Shown: in pieces, positions 3,173-33,421 of the stretch
Numbering within the stretch: position 1 is the first letter of the stretch
Layout: every line of letters begins with the position of its first letter
From: an uncultured Candidatus Pelagibacter sp.
GTDB taxonomy: Bacteria; Pseudomonadota; Alphaproteobacteria; Pelagibacterales; Pelagibacteraceae
DNA length: 33,421 nt
Direction: 5' to 3'
Assembly: GCA_905612435.1 (NCBI GenBank)
Contig: CAJQRZ010000006.1
Span: forward strand, 1 to 33,421
The notes under the pieces: generated by a model
What the model was told of the DNA's origin: nothing
Seen by the model: only the letters and a program-made list of their open reading frames with translations
The model's database searches: none
Translations under genes and position numbers: made by a program

Positions 3173-3940
3173 TTACCAAGAAATTTCTTTACCTAATAAA
3201 TTAATAAATTTTCCATTTAATGACTGAACATTTGATGATAGTAAGTCTATTATTAAATTAACGCAAACATCAGCTTTTATTTTTCCCTCGGGATTCATTC
3301 CTGATTGAACATTGCCAGGATCAATTGCAAATACTACTGTTTTAAATCTAGTGTTTAAATCTAGAGACATATTTTTTGTTATAGAATTTAAAGCCGTTTT
3401 CGATGTTCTATATATATATGCATTACCTTGATTGTTTAGTTTAATGCTACCGGCATCACTACTAATATTAACTAATACTTCAAGATTTTTTTCAGGTAGT
3501 TTATTGTCCAGTATTATTTGCATTATTTTCAAAATAGAAATCGAATTAACCATTAAGACTTCTTGAAATTTTCTAAAATCAAGATTCTCTATTTGTTGAT
3601 CTTCAAACGAACCTCCGAACACTCCAGCACAATTAAATATTATATCAATTGAAGTTTCTTTTATTTTTTCTTTAAAGTCTTTGGATTCATTTATTTCTCT
3701 TTGATCATACTTTACAATTGATAAATTCTTATCTTTGATAATTTTTAAATTTTCAGAATTTTGACGATAAGTTGCTAAAACTTTATTATCTAATTGTAAA
3801 ATTTTTTTTGTTAATGCAAGTCCAATTCCAGAATTGGCTCCTGTTATCAAAATATTTTTTTTATTTATATTTGCTAAATAATTTTTTTTTGAAAATTTTC
3901 TAGTATAAAGAAATTTTTTAATTTTTTTTCTTAAGCCCAT
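3173..3940 (-). CDS. SDR-family oxidoreductase (C-signal-like)
   Basis: A 255-aa short-chain dehydrogenase facing the sugar cluster. It has a basic N-terminal extension of about 27 residues, then the cofactor motif TGANSGIG, the FNCAG motif near 106, a serine region NISSDAGS near 160 and YRTSK near 178 as the catalytic Tyr/Lys. The late segment AIDPGNVQSGM resembles C-factor-like SDRs rather than fatty-acid FabG. It stands alone, separated from the Yip1 gene upstream on its strand by about 67 bases. Substrate unknown. Confidence 0.8.
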   Translation of the reverse strand: MGLRKKIKKFLYTRKFSKKNYLANINKKNILITGANSGIGLALTKKILQLDNKVLATYRQNSENLKIIKDKNLSIVKYDQREINESKDFKEKIKETSIDIIFNCAGVFGGSFEDQQIENLDFRKFQEVLMVNSISILKIMQIILDNKLPEKNLEVLVNISSDAGSIKLNNQGNAYIYRTSKTALNSITKNMSLDLNTRFKTVVFAIDPGNVQSGMNPEGKIKADVCVNLIIDLLSSNVQSLNGKFINLLGKEISW

Positions 3941-26396: not shown

Positions 26397-26832
26397 AGCT
26401 CTATCATCTAGTTATCATCTAGTTTCAATAAATAAGTAGGACCCAGACCAAATCTCAACTTTGAATTGTATTTAGACCCCTAACCCCCTTTACACAGAAA
26501 AGGATCCTAATAGTTTACTATATAATGTCTGTTTCAGACAGTTAGTCCCAGCTTTTTTGTTTTCATAAATTCGGCCCCTTTAAAAAAAATAATAAAAAAA
26601 TATTGCGAAAAAAAATATGAAAAAAAATTATGAATTAAAATCCAGGGAGAAAAAGATAAGTTTGAGCAAAATATAATGTCCCCCTGGAAAAGTTTCATTA
26701 CTAAATGATAATTGGAATATAGAGATTATAATTTTTATTACAAATTCTTAAAGCCCTTTAACTTATGTTAGCTTATGTTAACCTTGAGCTGACACTTTAA
26801 GTGTTACTCAAAGTGTACTTCTGTAATAATTA
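26397..26832. other. Non-coding stretch with short repeats and hairpins
   Basis: About 436 bases with no convincing gene. It holds a perfect 11-bp tandem repeat (ATCATCTAGTT at 26403–26413 and 26414–26424) right after the M24 stop, a hairpin TGTCTG-TTT-CAGACA (around 26526–26540), a 7-bp inverted repeat TCCAGGG/CCCTGGA (26641–26647 and 26682–26688) around a 34-base loop, a near-tandem GCTTATGTTA pair near 26762–26781, and a palindromic ACACTTTAAGTGT near 26791–26803. Any of these could end the upstream operon, but none has a tight T-run. Confidence 0.5.
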
Positions 26833-26880
26833 TTCCCGTTGCTTGTTGTCTGTTGCTTTGTGGTGGTAGCTAGGTTTTTT
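26833..26880. repeat. Dispersed GT-rich repeat, copy A
   Basis: A 48-base element beginning TTCCCGTTGCTTGTTG and ending GTGGTGGTAGCTAGG plus a T-run. Near-identical copies lie at 29907–29956 and 31654–31710. On the minus strand it begins at the stop codon of the HD-domain remnant, and it reads as C-rich and G-poor RNA. Confidence 0.85.
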
Positions 26881-27035
26881 TATCTTCTAAGTTTTTTCTT
26901 TTTTCTTTCCTGCCAAGGTGGTTTAGGAACTGCTACAGTATCACTGCATTCATCAACTATTTTAGCAACTTTACTACCAAACCGTTTTTTAATTTCTTTT
27001 AAAACTCTTAATCCACCCTGATCTTCTACAAAAAT
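26880..27035 (-). pseudogene. C-terminal remnant of an HD-domain phosphohydrolase
   Basis: On the minus strand the frame ending in TAA (26880–26882) reads FVEDQGGLRVLKEIKKRFG, then a V-A-K-I-V-D-E-C-S-D-T segment and PKPPWQERKKKK. This matches the HD-domain family related to the RelA/SpoT N-terminus, where HD[AV]VED, RFG..V..IV..CSD and PPW..RK are conserved. The metal-binding His-Asp of the motif is replaced by IF and everything before it, plus the C-terminal helices, is missing. The dispersed repeat follows directly. It is a broken gene end left after deletion or replacement by the neighbouring SDR segment. Confidence 0.65.
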
Positions 27036-27119
27036 GATTAGATATTCAGCATTTTGGATATAGTTAAAAACACATTGCTTTATTATAATAAAGGTTTTAT
27101 TTTAATAAGAGGTCAGAAT

Positions 27120-27950
27120 ATGCAAAACAAAGAAGTTATTTTAGTAACAGGAGCGTCTTCTGGAATGGGAAGAGAAACGGCAATCAAACTAGCAAAAGAA
27201 GGGTATATCGTTTATGCAGCAGCCCGAAGATTAGACAAATTAAATGAATTAAAGGAATATGGATGCATTCCCATTCAAATGGATATTGCTAAGGAGCAAG
27301 AAATAGAGAGTGTAGTAAGCAAAATAAATAAAGAACACGGTGGCGTTGATGTCTTATTCAACAATGCAGGAATAGCAGTGCAAGGTTCTTTAGAAGAAAC
27401 TGACATTGCTGATGCAAAAAAGCAATTTGAAGTCAATGTTTTTGGCTTGGCAAGATTGACGCAATTGGTAATTCCTTATATGCGAAATAAAGGTTCGGGA
27501 AAAATCATCAATACATCATCTATTGCCGGAAAAGTTCACGGTCCTATAAGCTCTTGGTATGTTGCTTCTAAGCACGCGGTAGAAGGCTTGTCTAGTTCGT
27601 TGCGTGTAGAGTTGCAGCCTTTTGGGATCCAAGTAGTTCTAATCAGACCAGGCGCTATAAGTTCAGAGCTTATAAGTACGTTTGTAGATAGTATGGTTAA
27701 GCGTTCTGGAAACGGTCCTTATGCCGAAATGACAAAAACATTGGTAGCATGGTCAAAATCTAGAGACAATAACCCAAAGTATTCATCACCACCGTCAGTT
27801 ATTGCAGATACCGTTCTTGAAATTATAAAAAGTAAAAAACCTAAAACAAGCTATGAAGTCGGTAAAACATCGAAGCAAATGATTTGGTCAAGAAGATTAT
27901 TGTCGGATAGAATTCTTGACAAAATGATGCTTAACTTTTTAAAGAGTTAA
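27120..27950 (+). CDS. SDR oxidoreductase with signs of transfer
   Basis: A 276-aa SDR. ATG 27120 is chosen over an in-frame TTG at 27054 because it follows AAGAGGT and starts the fold at once (MQNKEVILVTGASSGMG). FNNAG near 79, NTSSIAG near 131 and YVASK near 146 are the active-site motifs. The C-terminal KKPKTSYEVGKTSKQMIWSR region is typical of the longer retinol-dehydrogenase-like SDRs. Its codons are visibly richer in G and C than the flanks, and it is bracketed by two gene remnants, so recent acquisition is likely. Substrate unknown. Confidence 0.85.
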   Translation: MQNKEVILVTGASSGMGRETAIKLAKEGYIVYAAARRLDKLNELKEYGCIPIQMDIAKEQEIESVVSKINKEHGGVDVLFNNAGIAVQGSLEETDIADAKKQFEVNVFGLARLTQLVIPYMRNKGSGKIINTSSIAGKVHGPISSWYVASKHAVEGLSSSLRVELQPFGIQVVLIRPGAISSELISTFVDSMVKRSGNGPYAEMTKTLVAWSKSRDNNPKYSSPPSVIADTVLEIIKSKKPKTSYEVGKTSKQMIWSRRLLSDRILDKMMLNFLKS

Positions 27951-28180
27951 TGCGAGGCATTAGTAAAGTTTCACATGCAGCACTTGAACCTAATGCCTGG
28001 GGCACATGGTCGCCTACAAAACTTGCTGCGTTTATATATAAAGTCAGTATGAGTCCACGACCTAAAACTCGTTACCGTCCTGGTATAGTAGCTAAATCAC
28101 TAATATTTTTAAAGCGCTGGATGCCCGCTCGATTGTGGGACACTATGTTTATATCATCGTTAATTAAGCAAGGTAAATAG
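27950..28180 (+). pseudogene. C-terminal remnant of a second, related SDR
   Basis: A 76-aa frame starting in TAATG overlap with the SDR. Its later part, SPTKLAAFIYKVSMSPRPKTRYRPG and IFLKRWMPARLWDTMF, aligns with the last 50 residues of the upstream SDR (VIADTVLEIIKSKKPKTSYEVG and onward), but there is no cofactor or active-site region. It looks like the tail of a lost tandem SDR gene. It may still be translated through coupling. Confidence 0.6.
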
Positions 28181-28379
28181 GATCAAACAACTTTGTGGGA
28201 ACCTGGTTTGGTGAGTGGTAGCAAAGTTTATGGCACATGGCTGATGGAACGGGTCTTTATACACCTCTAGTTTGTTGAGTTTATAACAAGAGATTATTTT
28301 TTTATATAATGAAATATTTACTTGGTTAAAATTTTTTATTAGTTAGAAGTAATTTAACTTAACTTAACAAAAAGTAATA

Positions 28380-29501
28380 ATGGGAATCATTTTTAAAACT
28401 CTTATATTTATCGTCATTATCTTGGCTTTTATTGCTTTTGCTATATTTATATTTATTAAAACTTCATCTCAATTTGGAGCTTTTCCTGACGGAGATAGTA
28501 AAAAGATTATTCAAAATTCAAAAAATTTTATTAACGGTAAATTTGTAAATTTAAATCCTCTAACTGTAAGTATGGGTGGTGTAAATACACACCCTAATGA
28601 GAAAAGATCTACTTTAATGGATTGGATTTCTCCTGCCAAGGACAAGAACCCATTAAAATCTCTTCCATCAATAAAATTTCAAATCAAAAATTTAACAGAG
28701 GGTAAGTTTATTTGGCTGGGCCATTCAACTCTTTTGATGAACACAGGTGGCTTAATCGTTATGACAGATCCTGTTTTTAATAGAGCTTCTCCAATCCCAA
28801 TTTTTGGAAAACCATTTTCAATAGAGAATCCTATTACTATTAATGATTTACCTAAGGTTAATGTGGTTGTTATTTCCCATGATCATTATGACCATCTAGA
28901 TACAAGAGCAATAAAAGATCTTTCAAAAAAAGTTGATCATTTCTTTGTTCCTCTTGGAGTTAAAGCTCATCTAGAAAGCTGGGGAGTTGATAAAAATAAA
29001 ATTAGCGAATTAGATTGGCATGATAGTGAAAACTACAAAGGGATTAAATTTATATTAACGCCAGCACAACATTTTAGTGGTAGGGGATTGTCAGATGGAA
29101 ATGAAACCTTGTGGGGTTCGTGGATTATAAACTCTAGGACAATGAAGGTTTTTTTTAGTGGTGATGGTGGATACTCAAAAACATTTAAAGAGCTTGGGGG
29201 TATGTATGGTCCTTTTGATATCGCCTTTATTGAGAATGGAGCTTACAACGCTAACTGGTCAAAGATTCATATGTTTCCTGATGAAGTTGTTCAGGCGACT
29301 ATCGACTTAAATGCAAAGGTTCTTTTTCCAATTCATTGGGGTAAATTTGATTTAGCTATACATCCTTGGGATGAGCCAATAATTCGTGTCACTGATGAAG
29401 CTAAAAAACAAAATGTTAATATTGCCACTCCAATGATCGGAGAGATATTTGACTTAATTAATTTGCCAATAACTCATTGGTGGAAGTCTCTTAGAAATTA
29501 A
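28380..29501 (+). CDS. MBL-fold metallohydrolase, UlaG/NAPE-PLD-like, membrane-anchored
   Basis: A 373-aa protein with an N-terminal hydrophobic anchor (residues 4–27) and a metallo-beta-lactamase fold. WLGHSTLLMN (112–121) is the NAPE-PLD/UlaG lead motif. The dinuclear zinc motif is HDHYDHLD (H167, H169, D171, H172). Further ligands are visible as FSGDGGYS near 250 and the late FPIHWGKFD. The family hydrolyses phosphodiesters, lactones or N-acyl phosphatidylethanolamines. The anchor places it at the inner membrane, probably facing the periplasm. It is preceded by a 199-base gap and stands alone. Confidence 0.87.
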   Translation: MGIIFKTLIFIVIILAFIAFAIFIFIKTSSQFGAFPDGDSKKIIQNSKNFINGKFVNLNPLTVSMGGVNTHPNEKRSTLMDWISPAKDKNPLKSLPSIKFQIKNLTEGKFIWLGHSTLLMNTGGLIVMTDPVFNRASPIPIFGKPFSIENPITINDLPKVNVVVISHDHYDHLDTRAIKDLSKKVDHFFVPLGVKAHLESWGVDKNKISELDWHDSENYKGIKFILTPAQHFSGRGLSDGNETLWGSWIINSRTMKVFFSGDGGYSKTFKELGGMYGPFDIAFIENGAYNANWSKIHMFPDEVVQATIDLNAKVLFPIHWGKFDLAIHPWDEPIIRVTDEAKKQNVNIATPMIGEIFDLINLPITHWWKSLRN

Positions 29502-29555
29502 AACTATATTTTTTATTTTGATTATATTGTCTTCATTTCTAAAACAGCTTTTCTC

Positions 29556-29633
29556 TTAATTATTGGATTTAATTAGAATTTTTATAATCAGTTGATTTAA
29601 ACCCAGAACCACGATCCCTAAAAGTTTTTTCAT
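29556..29633 (-). pseudogene. Orphan signal-peptide segment (leader remnant L2)
   Basis: A 25-codon minus-strand frame starting MKKLLGIVVLG and then losing similarity. Its first 27 bases (29607–29633) are identical to the start of the protease gene (31049–31075). It has no mature protein behind it, so it is a leftover leader. Confidence 0.55.
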
Positions 29634-29645
29634 TATTTCTTTTTG

Positions 29646-29798
29646 TTATTTTTTTGACAGCTTATCTTTCATCTTTAATTTAAGTTTTTTTAATGTTCTT
29701 AAATCGTACCAACTTTTTTGTCCTCTTTTTAAGTTTCTCTCTTTTTCAACAATAGTTACTTTTTTTTTAAGATCTTTGTGTTTTTCTTTTATTTTCAT
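29646..29798 (-). CDS. YdcH/DUF465-like small protein, 50 aa
   Basis: A 50-aa highly charged protein starting MKIKEKHKDLKKKVTIVEKE and ending LKKLKLKMKDKLSKK. The KHKDLKKK start and the late LKK.KL.(L/M)KD motif match the YdcH/DUF465 pattern of a short helical hairpin. The middle is more basic than usual. Function of the family is unknown. The ATG directly follows the stop of an 11-codon leader-like frame (TAAATG), and another leader remnant lies 12 bases past its end. Confidence 0.55.
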   Translation of the reverse strand: MKIKEKHKDLKKKVTIVEKERNLKRGQKSWYDLRTLKKLKLKMKDKLSKK

Positions 29799-29834
29799 TT
29801 ATCTTAGAACCACGATCACTATCGCTTTCTTCAT
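29799..29834 (-). pseudogene. Leader-like mini-ORF MKKAIVIVVLR (remnant L3)
   Basis: An 11-codon minus-strand frame encoding MKKAIVIVVLR, a broken signal-peptide start that shares the GATCGTGGTTCT stretch with remnant L2. Its TAA abuts the ATG of the YdcH-like gene. It could be a decayed leader or could feed ribosomes to the downstream ATG. Confidence 0.4.
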
Positions 29835-29906
29835 GCTTCATGATACCTGATATCGGATACAGAGTCTTTGATGTATTAAGGTTAGTTTTATGGTCAATTG
29901 TCTGTA

Positions 29907-29956
29907 ATTCCCAATTCCCGTTGCCTGTTGCATTGTGGTGGTAGCTAAGGTTTTTT
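29907..29956. repeat. Dispersed GT-rich repeat, copy B
   Basis: This copy lacks six bases present in A and C (TTGTCT within the GCTTGTTGTCTGTTGC part) but otherwise matches. It shares an extra ATTCCCA start with copy C. It begins 4 bases past the stop of the minus-strand protease gene. Confidence 0.85.
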
Positions 29957-29959
29957 ATT

Positions 29960-31075
29960 TTAATTACAAAAAGTATAGACGGTACTTGCTTCCATTAGTT
30001 TGACTAATTTTTTTTCACCAAATCCAAAATTAATTAAGCTTGATGAGGAATACTTTGCGTTATTAACTTCTAGAAAGTTTATAACTGATGAAGCTTTAAT
30101 ACCAAAGCCAATACCTTCTGATTGACTTTTATCCAAACCTGATACTGCCACAGCTACTAAATCTCCATCTTCATTGACAATAGGTCCTCCACTATTGCCT
30201 GCGTTAATCGCAGCATCTAATTGAATTTGATTTGAATTATCAGCAAATCCTTTAACAGCACTAATAATTCCTGTAGTGAATTTTAAATCATCACTTAACC
30301 CTTTGCCAAAAGGATATCCTGCAACAAATACTTTCTGCATTTTTTCAGGTGGTTCATCTGAAATATTCAAATAGTCTTTGGGTTTAACTTTAGCTCTCAA
30401 TAACGCTAGATCTAACGTCTCATCTGTTGCTATTAATTCTGCATCAACTTCTTCTTCCTTAAATGTTATTTTCGATTGTTTGCATCCTTTAACAACGTGA
30501 TTGTTGGTCACGAAATAACCTTTGTTGTTAATAAAAAAACCAGAGCCACTGCTTGCAACATCATCACTTGATCCAGTAGAAGAGTTAAATTCACATTGCA
30601 TTTTTGAAGAGTACCCAAATTTATAAACTATATCGGATGGTTTTTTAAACTCTTTCAATCTAGTTATAGTCTTTTTTTTAAAATCAAATGTAATTGTTGT
30701 TTTCATTTTAGAAACGCCAATTGGTTTTATTAATTCAGCCTCAGCATAATCTTCATTAATAAAAGTTAAATTATACATAGTTTGATAAAGTTTTTTTGCT
30801 GTCATTGAGTCAGGGTTTATACCCTCATCAATTAAAATTTTTTTAGTCGCTTCATCTCTGTCTTTAATTCCTTGGTCAGAATAGATAACTACCTGTGAAA
30901 CAGAATTATTTTCGTTGATTTGAAAATATTTATCTTCAAATTTAGCACTATTAAAATTAGTGCGTGTTTCTCCTTCAATAGTACTTTCAAGAGTGAAGCA
31001 TTTTGAAAATTTAATTGCATAAGCATTCCCACTCAACAACAAACCAAAAACCACGATCCCTAAAAGTTTTTTCAT
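29960..31075 (-). CDS. Secreted trypsin-like serine protease (S1C type, no PDZ)
   Basis: A 371-aa protein with signal peptide MKKLLGIVVFGLLLSGNAYA (cleavage after residue 20). Residues 21–165 are an unrecognised N-terminal domain. The protease domain runs from about 175 with GSGFFINNKGYFVTNNHVV. The triad is H193, D222 (TLDLALL) and S295 (GNSGGP). DegP-family relatives carry one or two PDZ domains after the protease; this one ends soon after it, with two Cys-containing stretches that could form a disulfide. It probably acts on periplasmic proteins. The leader segment is shared at DNA level with a nearby remnant. Confidence 0.87.
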   Translation of the reverse strand: MKKLLGIVVFGLLLSGNAYAIKFSKCFTLESTIEGETRTNFNSAKFEDKYFQINENNSVSQVVIYSDQGIKDRDEATKKILIDEGINPDSMTAKKLYQTMYNLTFINEDYAEAELIKPIGVSKMKTTITFDFKKKTITRLKEFKKPSDIVYKFGYSSKMQCEFNSSTGSSDDVASSGSGFFINNKGYFVTNNHVVKGCKQSKITFKEEEVDAELIATDETLDLALLRAKVKPKDYLNISDEPPEKMQKVFVAGYPFGKGLSDDLKFTTGIISAVKGFADNSNQIQLDAAINAGNSGGPIVNEDGDLVAVAVSGLDKSQSEGIGFGIKASSVINFLEVNNAKYSSSSLINFGFGEKKLVKLMEASTVYTFCN

Positions 31076-31167
31076 GAACTAGTATCCTAGCACAAACCTA
31101 TAAGTAAGTCAGGTGCGTGAATCAGTGGGAATTTTTGTTTGATATGGATCAATGAGAAATAGTTTTT

Positions 31168-31524
31168 TCATTTATCTTTAGATTTATTGTTTTTTTTCTT
31201 AACATTTTTTGCAATCTTATACGCTGTATTCGCCCATTGAAGAAGTCTATCTTGATCCTCCATTACCTCAGCGGGGACTTCTAAGTTAGAAAGAGAAATT
31301 GTTTTGCCTTGCTTTCGATATGTGAGTGGGTTGCTGTTGTAAGATTCATAGTCCTTGCGATTTGTCGTATCCGTCTTGAAATAAACCGTGCCATCAAAGA
31401 CAAGCGCAAAGGCTGCATCGTGTTTACATATTGCATAACCTCCAAATAGGGGTTTGTAGGAAAGCTCGCCCATCGGCTCCAACAGATCTAACATATAGTT
31501 TAAAAACTCATTTTTATTTTTCAT
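31168..31524 (-). CDS. TfoX N-terminal domain protein
   Basis: A 118-aa protein with the TfoX_N fold only: LEPMGELSYKPLFGGYAIC (about 15–33), FALVFDGTVYFKTD and a C-terminal YKIAKN segment with a Lys tail. The TfoX N-domain occurs in the competence regulator Sxy/TfoX, but stand-alone copies are widespread and mostly uncharacterised. Codons are less AT-biased in the first two thirds than in neighbours, suggesting import. Confidence 0.8.
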   Translation of the reverse strand: MKNKNEFLNYMLDLLEPMGELSYKPLFGGYAICKHDAAFALVFDGTVYFKTDTTNRKDYESYNSNPLTYRKQGKTISLSNLEVPAEVMEDQDRLLQWANTAYKIAKNVKKKNNKSKDK

Positions 31525-31653
31525 TGATTTTTTTTATTCATAAAGCAGAAACACGTATAGAGATAGTTTTTTTATGTATCCCGCCTCTGGTTTCGGTGTG
31601 GTTGAGCGTGCTTTAACTTTGGAGGTCTTGAGATTAAAGCTTTTTAATTCCTC

Positions 31654-31710
31654 ATTCCCAATTCCCGTTGCTTGTTGTCTGTTGCTTTGTGGTGGTAGCT
31701 AGGGTTTTTT
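31654..31710. repeat. Dispersed GT-rich repeat, copy C
   Basis: The longest copy, starting ATTCCCAATTCCCG and ending in a six-T run. On the minus strand the amber stop of the upstream 202-aa gene (31699–31701) lies inside the repeat, so the repeat sets the end of that protein (MKKP-stop). Confidence 0.85.
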
Positions 31711-32307
31711 CATCTTCATTTTAAATTTAAACCAATATTTTTTTATAAAAGAAAATTTATTATATTTTATTATTCTTTTAGCATGAGCTTTGGCTTTAAA
31801 TTCTTTAAATTCTTTTTTTCTTCTTCTATTTTCTTCAAGTATTTTAGGGCTATTATTTATTTCATGTTTTCTATATTTTTCCTCTCGTTCTTTTGAATGA
31901 GCTTCCATAGACTTTAAATAATATCCAGCTGGACTATCTCCAAGAATATCTTGGATTAATTTTATATAAATTCTACCGTAAATTTCTTGAAAAATATGTC
32001 TTAATGCACCTGTATTTATTTGATCTATATCTACTGCATTTAAATTTGCCAATTCTTTACTTATAGTTTTAACACAAAATTTTATGTCATCACTGAAGAG
32101 ATCAACAATAATAAGATTTTTAGATCTTCTAGAAGGTCTTGTTTTATTTGGAAAAGGAAGATTGTTATTTTGAAAACATTTTTTTATAAGACTTGATCTA
32201 AAAAATTCTGCCCCACAAGTAGTACACCCACAACTCACACACCAATTTTCTTTTTGAGCTTGATCTGTAAGAGATTTAATCCAGTTTGTCGTTTTTATAT
32301 TATTCAA
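31699..32307 (-). CDS. Unknown 202-aa protein with a CxxCxCxxC motif
   Basis: The N-terminus carries WCVSCGCTTCG with C23, C26, C28 and C31, a compact site fit for zinc or an iron-sulfur centre. The middle is mixed alpha/beta, and the last 60 residues are a strongly basic helical region (KEREEKYRKHE, RRRKKEFKEFKAKAHAKR) that could contact nucleic acid or form a coiled coil. The only plausible start is TTG 32307, overlapping the stop of the upstream 64-aa gene, which argues for coupling. Beyond the amber stop the same frame stays open for 54 more codons. Function not recognised. Confidence 0.6.
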   Translation of the reverse strand: MNNIKTTNWIKSLTDQAQKENWCVSCGCTTCGAEFFRSSLIKKCFQNNNLPFPNKTRPSRRSKNLIIVDLFSDDIKFCVKTISKELANLNAVDIDQINTGALRHIFQEIYGRIYIKLIQDILGDSPAGYYLKSMEAHSKEREEKYRKHEINNSPKILEENRRRKKEFKEFKAKAHAKRIIKYNKFSFIKKYWFKFKMKMKKP

Positions 32308-32498
32308 AGCTGCTGAAGCTCTTTCAAATTAACAATTTCTATTTTGCATTTTTTATTAATCACAAATTGAGCTTTAGGAAACTCGGGTTTTAATAAATTA
32401 ATAAGGCTATTCATTTCAGCTACACCTGTGCAGTTTTTATTTTGTACTAATGTTTGAGTTGAAATGGCTACTAGGAAAAGTACTACGAATCTTGACAT
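32304..32498 (-). CDS. Small exported protein, 64 aa
   Basis: A 64-aa frame with a signal-like start (MSRFVVLFLVAISTQTLVQ) and a short mature part holding two cysteines (NKNC, NKKC) that could form a disulfide. The stop overlaps the TTG start of the 202-aa gene. Function unknown; the pair is probably co-transcribed. Confidence 0.5.
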   Translation of the reverse strand: MSRFVVLFLVAISTQTLVQNKNCTGVAEMNSLINLLKPEFPKAQFVINKKCKIEIVNLKELQQL

Positions 32499-32533
32499 AT
32501 CTTATGGTAATTTGGATTTAGGGCAGATTTGTG

Positions 32534-32770
32534 TTAATCAACATCTTTCATAAATTTCTTATCAAATTCTGTTTGATCTATTCGAAACCAATCAAAGAGT
32601 TCTTTGTGACTAACATTTGTAGTTCGAGATTCATCATTATGATTGTGCCAAAAAACGAAATAATGCTTACCATTTTCAAACCCATCATCTTTACCTATTA
32701 GTTTGATTTCCTTAACCTCACCATAAACCCACTTATCAACTTTTTTGTATTTAGGTTCGGGTCTGGTCAT
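32534..32770 (-). CDS. Unknown 78-aa soluble protein
   Basis: A compact soluble protein rich in aromatic residues (DKWVYGEVKEIKLIG, HYFVFWHNHND, ELFDWFRID). A small beta-barrel start followed by a helix is plausible. No signal peptide, no known motif. The composition is clearly protein-like. It is separated from the exported 64-aa gene by about 35 bases on the same strand. Confidence 0.6.
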   Translation of the reverse strand: MTRPEPKYKKVDKWVYGEVKEIKLIGKDDGFENGKHYFVFWHNHNDESRTTNVSHKELFDWFRIDQTEFDKKFMKDVD

Positions 32771-32832
32771 TTTTTAATTTTGTTTCTCATAAATAACAAA
32801 ATCATTTTTTTTCATAAAGGCTAATTTGTGAT

Positions 32833-33421
32833 TTATTTTTTGAGAAATTCATTAACATGGTTCTCAGTGAAAAATAATTCATAATCATTCTCAGTCATTG
32901 TTATTTTATAACCTGAAATAGGTTCTTTAGTTCCGTCCTTCCTTATTAGTTGTGCTACTGTTTTTTCTCTCTTTTGTTTCAATAAGTCATGGACCAAATT
33001 CAAAGTTTCCATAGCATGTCCATAAGAATTAACAAAACCATAATGATGATTGTTGCACAATACCAGCATATTACTTAGGAGAGTTTTGGGTCCATTTTTT
33101 CCTATCGAATGGATGTGATGTACATCCATCAATTTTCTTCTATTGATAGCTCCTAAACTTTTAACCAAAAAATCTTCATTAACCGTTTTATCTGTCGCTA
33201 GACAGCAAATTTGACAGTGATTTAAATAGTGTGTTTCTTTCAACTTACGTTTATTATCCTTCATTATTTTTTTTTCTTTACTGGTTACTCTAACCTTAAC
33301 AATAGTTTTTTTTTCATAATCTTCCTCTTCCATATAATCGATTCCCTTTTCTTCGGTACGAGGTTCATCTTCTTTTGCTTCAGATGGATGAGAGGATAAA
33401 GTTGTTTCCAAGTTTTGATCT
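32833..33421 (-). CDS. HNH endonuclease-like protein (5' end cut by window edge)
   Basis: At least 192 aa, and the frame stays open to the last base, so the TTG at 33411 may not be the start. Numbering from that TTG: an acidic N-terminal stretch (1–35), a basic helix, then a zinc-knuckle HNH: C66 and C69 (HCQIC), DVHHIHS (H98, H99, H101), and C119 with H122/H123 (LCNNHH). The two CxxC/CxxH halves should hold a structural zinc and the DVHH part the catalytic metal. A C-terminal segment of about 60 residues is unassigned. No modification or partner gene is visible, so a role in restriction, homing or phage defence cannot be decided. Confidence 0.75.
   Translation of the reverse strand, partial: DQNLETTLSSHPSEAKEDEPRTEEKGIDYMEEEDYEKKTIVKVRVTSKEKKIMKDNKRKLKETHYLNHCQICCLATDKTVNEDFLVKSLGAINRRKLMDVHHIHSIGKNGPKTLLSNMLVLCNNHHYGFVNSYGHAMETLNLVHDLLKQKREKTVAQLIRKDGTKEPISGYKITMTENDYELFFTENHVNEFLKK

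Follow-up and report, generated by a model that had tools for sequence, protein, structure and literature searches.

A heptamer-built repeat near gene-exchange joints in a Candidatus Pelagibacter contig and its possible relation to the tmRNA 3' end

What is a GT-rich repeat of approximately 50 bases doing at the ends of genes in a Candidatus Pelagibacter genome: does it mark the borders of exchangeable genes, serve their transcripts, or travel passively with them? The question was raised by contig CAJQRZ010000006.1 (C6) of an uncultured Candidatus Pelagibacter sp. (assembly GCA_905612435.1), whose 33,421 analysed nucleotides are referred to below as the window. It carries three copies of the repeat, W1, W2, and W3, all on the plus strand. 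Copies of the element lie at or near joints of gene content or the truncation of a gene, those in the window are co-oriented, the number of their 7-base units varies between strains, and a fourth copy elsewhere in the genome is a hybrid with the 3' end of transfer-messenger RNA (tmRNA, gene ssrA). With belief and doubt nearly in balance, we regard the repeat as the left arm and core of decayed attachment-like (att-like) sites that form the boundaries between small exchangeable gene units of this SAR11 lineage.

The three related copies, at the positions reported by the first-pass annotation, were recovered by a repeat search. W1 (26833–26880; 26832–26881 in the repeat search) consists of heptamer units and the core TTGTGGTGGTAGCTAGG. 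W3 (31654–31710; 31661–31710 in the search) is built from the units ATTCCCA, ATTCCCG, TTGCTTG, TTGTCTG, TTGCTTT, GTGGTGG, and TAGCTAG and is identical to W1 in 49 of 50 bases. No direct repeat in the window is longer than the 43-base exact match between them, and the maximum of 21 bases found in 100 simulated first-order Markov windows ruled out chance similarity. The identity of W2 is 82% without gaps, mainly because one 7-base unit is absent. W2 forms the right portion of a longer element (approximately 29838–29956, with an arm at 29838–29906 and the heptamer/core part at 29907–29947; 29907–29956 in the search), to which the element profile (nhmmer) aligned with 112 bits over 29839–30001, W2 itself being among the eight seeds. 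All copies are strings of heptamers plus the core TTGTGGTGGTAGCTA, which has three exact matches in the window and no further ones when up to three mismatches are allowed; three matches at this tolerance were reached by one of 100 shuffles.

An indication of what the repeat borders came from the uncultured Candidatus Pelagibacter sp. RIS_SAG_65 (genome G101). Two pieces of the window, 26716–29633 and 31041–31692, are 98.98% and 98.62% identical to its contig C17, whereas long syntenic core pieces of the two genomes are only 75–83% identical. The resulting mobile block (26716–31692, no strand assigned) occupies different loci: in the window it comes after an M24 peptidase gene (synteny with RIS_SAG_65 contig C47 ends at 26431), and in RIS_SAG_65 it is placed between ammonium-transporter and aldehyde dehydrogenase genes, the M24 locus of that genome running on into other genes. 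The right edge of the block falls inside W3, at 31692, immediately after TTTGTGG. At the place of W1, RIS_SAG_65 has 14 bases (two heptamers) more, and at W3 the two genomes differ by 7 bases (one heptamer). Next to W1 lies a fragment of an HD-domain gene (26880–27030, minus strand) truncated at both ends. It breaks off at 26895, some 15 bases away from W1; three relatives (L054, L065, and L067) run past 26895–26900 with other sequence, and the match to a fourth (L062) ends at 26949. The proposal that the repeat is a recombination element at exchangeable gene ends is supported by these two joints, the end of a 99%-identical interspecies block within W3 and the cut HD gene beside W1.

The RIS_SAG_65 block lacks the protease gene and W2. 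A single hybrid copy of a signal-peptide DNA repeat replaces there the two copies of the window and the intervening 1.4 kb. Both window copies are on the minus strand, one at 29599–29633 (a remnant with the MKKLLGIVVLG start) and the other at 31041–31075 (the start of the protease). At a second RIS_SAG_65 locus (L045:1000–1851), a different dehydrogenase body is found between flanks 97.5–99.4% identical to those of the window.

The arrangement of genes around the copies is not random. As the first-pass annotation had noticed, each window copy stands at or near the stop codon of a minus-strand frame: that of the HD fragment (26880–26882) at the edge of W1, that of the protease (29960) 3 bases past W2, and that of a 202-aa frame (31699–31701) inside W3. 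With the GT-rich strand as reference, the gene that comes after the repeat runs antiparallel and points its 3' end at it in seven of the nine copies having a neighbor, or in all nine if the truncated HD gene next to two copies is included; a tenth copy lies at a contig end, and the copies of the window and of RIS_SAG_65 are not independent. On the other side of the repeat, the start of an antiparallel gene faces it in seven of ten copies. The idea that the repeat always accompanies accessory genes failed, one RIS_SAG_65 copy coming after the ammonium-transporter gene.

The distribution of the element is narrow but exceeds a recent local duplication, with relatives on another contig of the same genome, in two other genomes of the genus, in RIS_SAG_65, and in a record from the Black Sea. 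Four copies are present in the own genome (1.1 Mb in 73 contigs, 71.5% complete), the three in the window and a diverged one on contig C53. With a ten-copy profile and strict filters, the element was found in three of 399 genus genomes, the own one with four copies and G104 and G195 with one each; it was also present in three copies on RIS_SAG_65 contig C17 (L032) and in the Black Sea alphaproteobacterium record (L022). GTGGTGGTAGCTA with up to one mismatch matched the own genome three times, always in the window (one match for the reversed control), two mismatch-tolerant patterns matched only the own genome when it was scanned with 100 relatives (reversed controls one and zero), and a longer exact pattern had no match in the genome-contig and viral-contig collections. 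A further scan of the genus gave matches in eight of 399 genomes against seven reversed-control matches; the five beyond G000, G104, and G195 (L083–L087) were discarded because the arms of the element were absent. An 18-mer retrieved 24 genome and five viral hits, of which L022 and L032 have the element in context; apart from a Saprospiraceae record (L020, discussed below), the remaining 26 of these 29 hits were taken as chance 18-mers. A second tail type, at up to three mismatches, occurred in three of 191 genomes (G000 twice, G195, and G020; controls zero), and neither it nor the element core was found among the viral contigs. A tail-like remnant, TTTATGGCACATGGCTGATGGAACG, resembling the right part of the G195 copy with one mismatch to the pattern, lies in the window at 28227–28251 on the plus strand; its similarity to the tmRNA end is not significant (p 0.46).

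The connection with tmRNA was provided by the copy on C53, a contig of 3476 bases. Here, the core TTGTGGGGGTAGCTTGG is fused to the 25-base AGGGCACCGGGCAACAGAACGCCCC, which is two mismatches away from the 3' end of the genome's own tmRNA. This similarity exceeded that of all 2000 mononucleotide shuffles, and the Rfam alpha_tmRNA model gave a sub-threshold match of 22.6 bits (E 0.0026 and 0.0016). The own tmRNA gene is on contig C46 and the island on C6; as far as separate contigs show, the island does not lie downstream of ssrA. Contig C4 of the same genome has an ssrA end at 1307 and, 2 kb away on the same strand, a tail remnant at 3340 (three mismatches), which has no significant tmRNA likeness.

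Sequences matching the tmRNA end with up to two mismatches were detected in 335 of 399 genus genomes, including 57 of 57 at least 90% complete, with no match for reversed controls. By a hand tally among the matches listed, 138 of the 399 genomes have at least two, which need not adjoin each other. We then considered 32 loci, chosen for two or more ends or for earlier hits and not for strand, with four mismatches allowed per end. All 35 pairs of neighboring ssrA ends less than 8 kb apart were co-oriented, at spacings of 343 to 7481 bases (median 1275), and 30 of the 35 fell between 0.3 and 2.3 kb. At least 28 same-contig pairs, picked by eye among the matches listed and overlapping the 32-locus set, were likewise all on the same strand. 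Individual loci serve as examples. In G107 (L109), a signal-peptide gene is flanked by the tmRNA end on one side and by an extra end on the other, and the same holds for G254 (L112) with a second frame added; G028 (L110) has five successive ssrA ends with no tmRNA tag within the 20-kb piece, and in G151 (L111) a single gene is enclosed between enoyl-reductase and polynucleotide phosphorylase (PNPase) genes. The geometry is comparable to that of the repeat, the next gene being antiparallel at 35 of 46 extra ends and at 15 of 20 tmRNA-linked ends. Some extra ends share left arms unlike tmRNA: AAGGATTAT, with one mismatch, stands upstream of the end in 13 of the 46 extra contexts and in none of the 33 tmRNA contexts, a comparison that covered loci numbered 38 and above other than the viral contigs L156–L163 and in which at least one "extra" context (L132) resembles a true tmRNA end. 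These extra tmRNA 3' ends beside short gene units may represent a cassette-like system.

A route from such ends to the repeat in the window can be proposed. Site-specific integration would insert short gene units into sequences that match the 3' end of tmRNA, by means of a recombinase provided in trans. W1–W3 and similar copies would once have carried an ssrA-like right end and would later have lost it. The direct repeats and the signal-peptide DNA could subsequently be used by homologous recombination as well, and the heptamer arrays would lengthen and shorten through slippage. A wider version, which we consider rather unlikely, is an integron-like cassette system of SAR11 genomes based on the tmRNA 3' end. 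Its short units, often of a single gene and in some cases with near-identical signal-peptide starts, would each be bounded by co-oriented ssrA-end sites that fall into several classes of left arm, one of them the three-copy repeat, and would cross species by means of a trans-acting recombinase. If ssrA-end sites and related repeats do bound small units in many species, streamlined genomes would have a concrete route of gene exchange, and exchanged genes in genomes and metagenomes of SAR11 could be located by a sequence handle.

Two familiar kinds of repeats invite comparison. Integron cassettes with attC sites are single genes parted by co-oriented recombination sites. The attC sites are palindromic and fold, whereas those of the window showed no more folding than shuffled sequences, and the proteins scanned, among which no search was aimed at an integron integrase, included none. 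The short tandemly repeated repetitive (STRR) heptanucleotide sequences of cyanobacteria are degenerate 7-base intergenic arrays of varying length. The window copies share with them the 7-base units in variable number; they differ in host, in the fixed core and arms beyond the heptamers, and in their position at gene-exchange joints.

The closest system known to us from description is that of the ssrA-specific genomic islands of Dehalococcoides. As described in PMC3146451, these are tandem units that have the ssrA 3' end as a direct repeat at their borders; a common motif unlike ssrA adjoins the repeat, and an integration module is present in 16 of 31 islands, others thus lacking it. The SAR11 ssrA-end units resemble these islands, and the repeats of the window are likewise tandem and in one orientation (three of three on the plus strand). 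The differences are several. W1–W3 comprise the arm and core only, with no ssrA end, and the C53 copy alone has the border. The SAR11 ends are mostly 0.3–2.3 kb apart (30 of 35 pairs), the units being smaller in the loci examined; some ends adjoin PNPase or RNase H genes at a distance from tmRNA, and no integration module was recognised in the SAR11 units, among which no systematic integrase search was made. Since the window copies lack the defining border and location features, they were not classed as ssrA-specific islands. For SAR11 itself, hypervariable regions with variable gene content in a conserved genome were described by Wilhelm et al. 2007 (PMC2217521), who proposed, in the passages at hand, cassette exchange through flanking structural RNA genes; the main text of that paper has no occurrence of "tmRNA", and those passages do not describe the element. 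Neither "tmRNA" nor "cassette" occurs in the text of PMC7318151 as retrieved. A full-text literature search, with most subscription journals outside it, returned, among the results listed, no title or abstract opening on SAR11 ssrA-end units or the repeat.

Several results weigh against reading the repeat as decayed boundary sites. None of W1, W2, and W3 is significantly similar to the tmRNA end (p 0.49, 0.78, and 0.56), nor are L022, L089, and two tail remnants (p 0.12–0.88); L090 and one C17 remnant are borderline (p 0.044 and 0.033, uncorrected). Among ten sequences tested, C53 alone was clearly significant and is the sole bridge between the two families; the tmRNA connection, drawn from this hybrid and from geometry, is the weakest step of the argument. 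The joints are imperfect as well: the unbroken identity of the block begins at about 26736, roughly 100 bases outside W1, the protease indel passes through the signal-peptide repeat and not through W2, and the other break of the HD fragment (27030) has no repeat alongside. In the own genome, the unit beside tmRNA on C46 (L104) is a DNA methyltransferase gene parallel, not antiparallel, to the ends. No integrase or other recombinase was recognised among the island proteins scanned. Finally, the Saprospiraceae record L020 (100–190), far outside the Pelagibacter group, has the same heptamer vocabulary (TTGCCAG, ATTCCCG, TTGCCTG) without the core, which favors a passive heptamer repeat.

Such a passive repeat, a variable number tandem repeat of STRR type hitch-hiking in exchanged islands with the nearby junctions being coincidental or fragile-site breaks, is an explanation we hold to be unlikely. 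Besides the coreless L020 array, it would account for the 7-base units, for the 14- and 7-base strain differences at otherwise near-identical loci, and for a second heptamer-like array (ATATCGG units) on RIS_SAG_65 C17; the conservation between genomes, beyond the heptamers, of the core TTGTGGKGGTAGCT and of some stretches of the arms, and the non-random orientation of the surrounding genes, speak against it. A somewhat better, still doubtful, account is that the repeats are only handles for homologous recombination, RecA-type exchange proceeding via repeated intergenic DNA with no dedicated site-specific system at the element. The hybrid 35-base signal-peptide repeat at the RIS_SAG_65 protease indel is a signature of direct-repeat recombination, the dehydrogenase that differs between near-identical flanks fits the same process, and signal-peptide DNA is widely repeated: a query with the 5-kb block matched in some part in 308 of 399 genus genomes, and among the matches listed those to the signal-peptide DNA (31015–31075) predominated. 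However, the other species has the block elsewhere in its genome, which plain allelic exchange would not produce, and neither the co-orientation of all 35 ssrA-end pairs nor the non-tmRNA left arms shared by some of them is what this account would lead one to expect.

The first-pass annotation had also suggested a terminator-like or Rho-utilisation site. A putative Rho site or another 3'-end signal serving the minus-strand genes would fit the position close to a gene's 3' end, on the C-richer strand, in seven of nine copies (nine of nine with the HD remnant), and that strand is indeed unstructured (z −0.22 to 0.69). The description of its RNA as C-rich and G-poor stood only in part. The minus-strand C/G counts are 14/7, 12/10, and 15/10 for W1, W2, and W3, and equal or higher C minus G was found in 7.7%, 37%, and 5.0% of 50-nt stretches, which places W1 and W3 in the top 5–8% and leaves W2 ordinary; dimers of a pyrimidine followed by C (YC) number just 3, 3, and 4. 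An intrinsic terminator was rejected, none of the four terminator-like sites in 26400–33421 being at a copy, and an element present in three of 399 genus genomes is not a general terminator. We therefore consider a 3'-end signal very improbable, and the first interpretation as a whole is partly supported. Hardly credible is an assembly chimera in which the contig end beyond approximately 26.4 kb derives from another strain. The incompleteness of the genome (71.5%, 73 contigs) and the end of RIS_SAG_65 C47 synteny at 26431 would allow it, but the same block with counterparts of W1 and W3 stands at another locus in an independent record, the estimated contamination is 0.06, and the copies would be real regardless.

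Besides the HD fragment, the island encodes a short-chain dehydrogenase (27054–27950, plus), a metallo-beta-lactamase-fold hydrolase (28380–29501, plus), the trypsin-like protease (29960–31075, minus) missing from the RIS_SAG_65 block, a TfoX N-terminal-domain protein (31168–31524, minus), and the 202-aa frame (31699–32307, minus) whose stop codon lies within W3 and which had no match in Pfam or PHROGs at the limits used. Near phage or plasmid relatives of the island were not accepted, the matches being short (E 2–8), and two sub-threshold matches to known RNA families within it were taken as chance. Record L022, from the Black Sea, has a gene for a phage-type integrase (PF00589, E 1.1e-8) approximately 5.4 kb from the element, with a primase-like gene between them; as support for site-specific recombination this is suggestive only. 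The ssrA ends in eight viral contigs (L156–L163) are surrounded by T4-like phage genes and are more probably part of phage-borne tmRNA, lying inside tmRNA genes, than att sites; phage tmRNA is a subject treated in PMC9004378.

A few minor features were also recorded. An ssrA-end variant, GGTGCACC, occurs in L182, L186, and L128; a 141-aa frame adjoins it in the first two, and Pfam identifies that of L186 as RNase H. An HNH-endonuclease-like frame is located at the contig end (32833–33411; PHROGs E 0.00066). The DNA encoding the MKKLLGIVV signal peptide (31015–31075 and 29599–29639) is near-identical at the starts of different genes in many species. A second heptamer-like array (CTTCATG/ATATCGG units) of varying length is present in the window at 29831–29866 and on RIS_SAG_65 C17 (L045, near 2220–2253).

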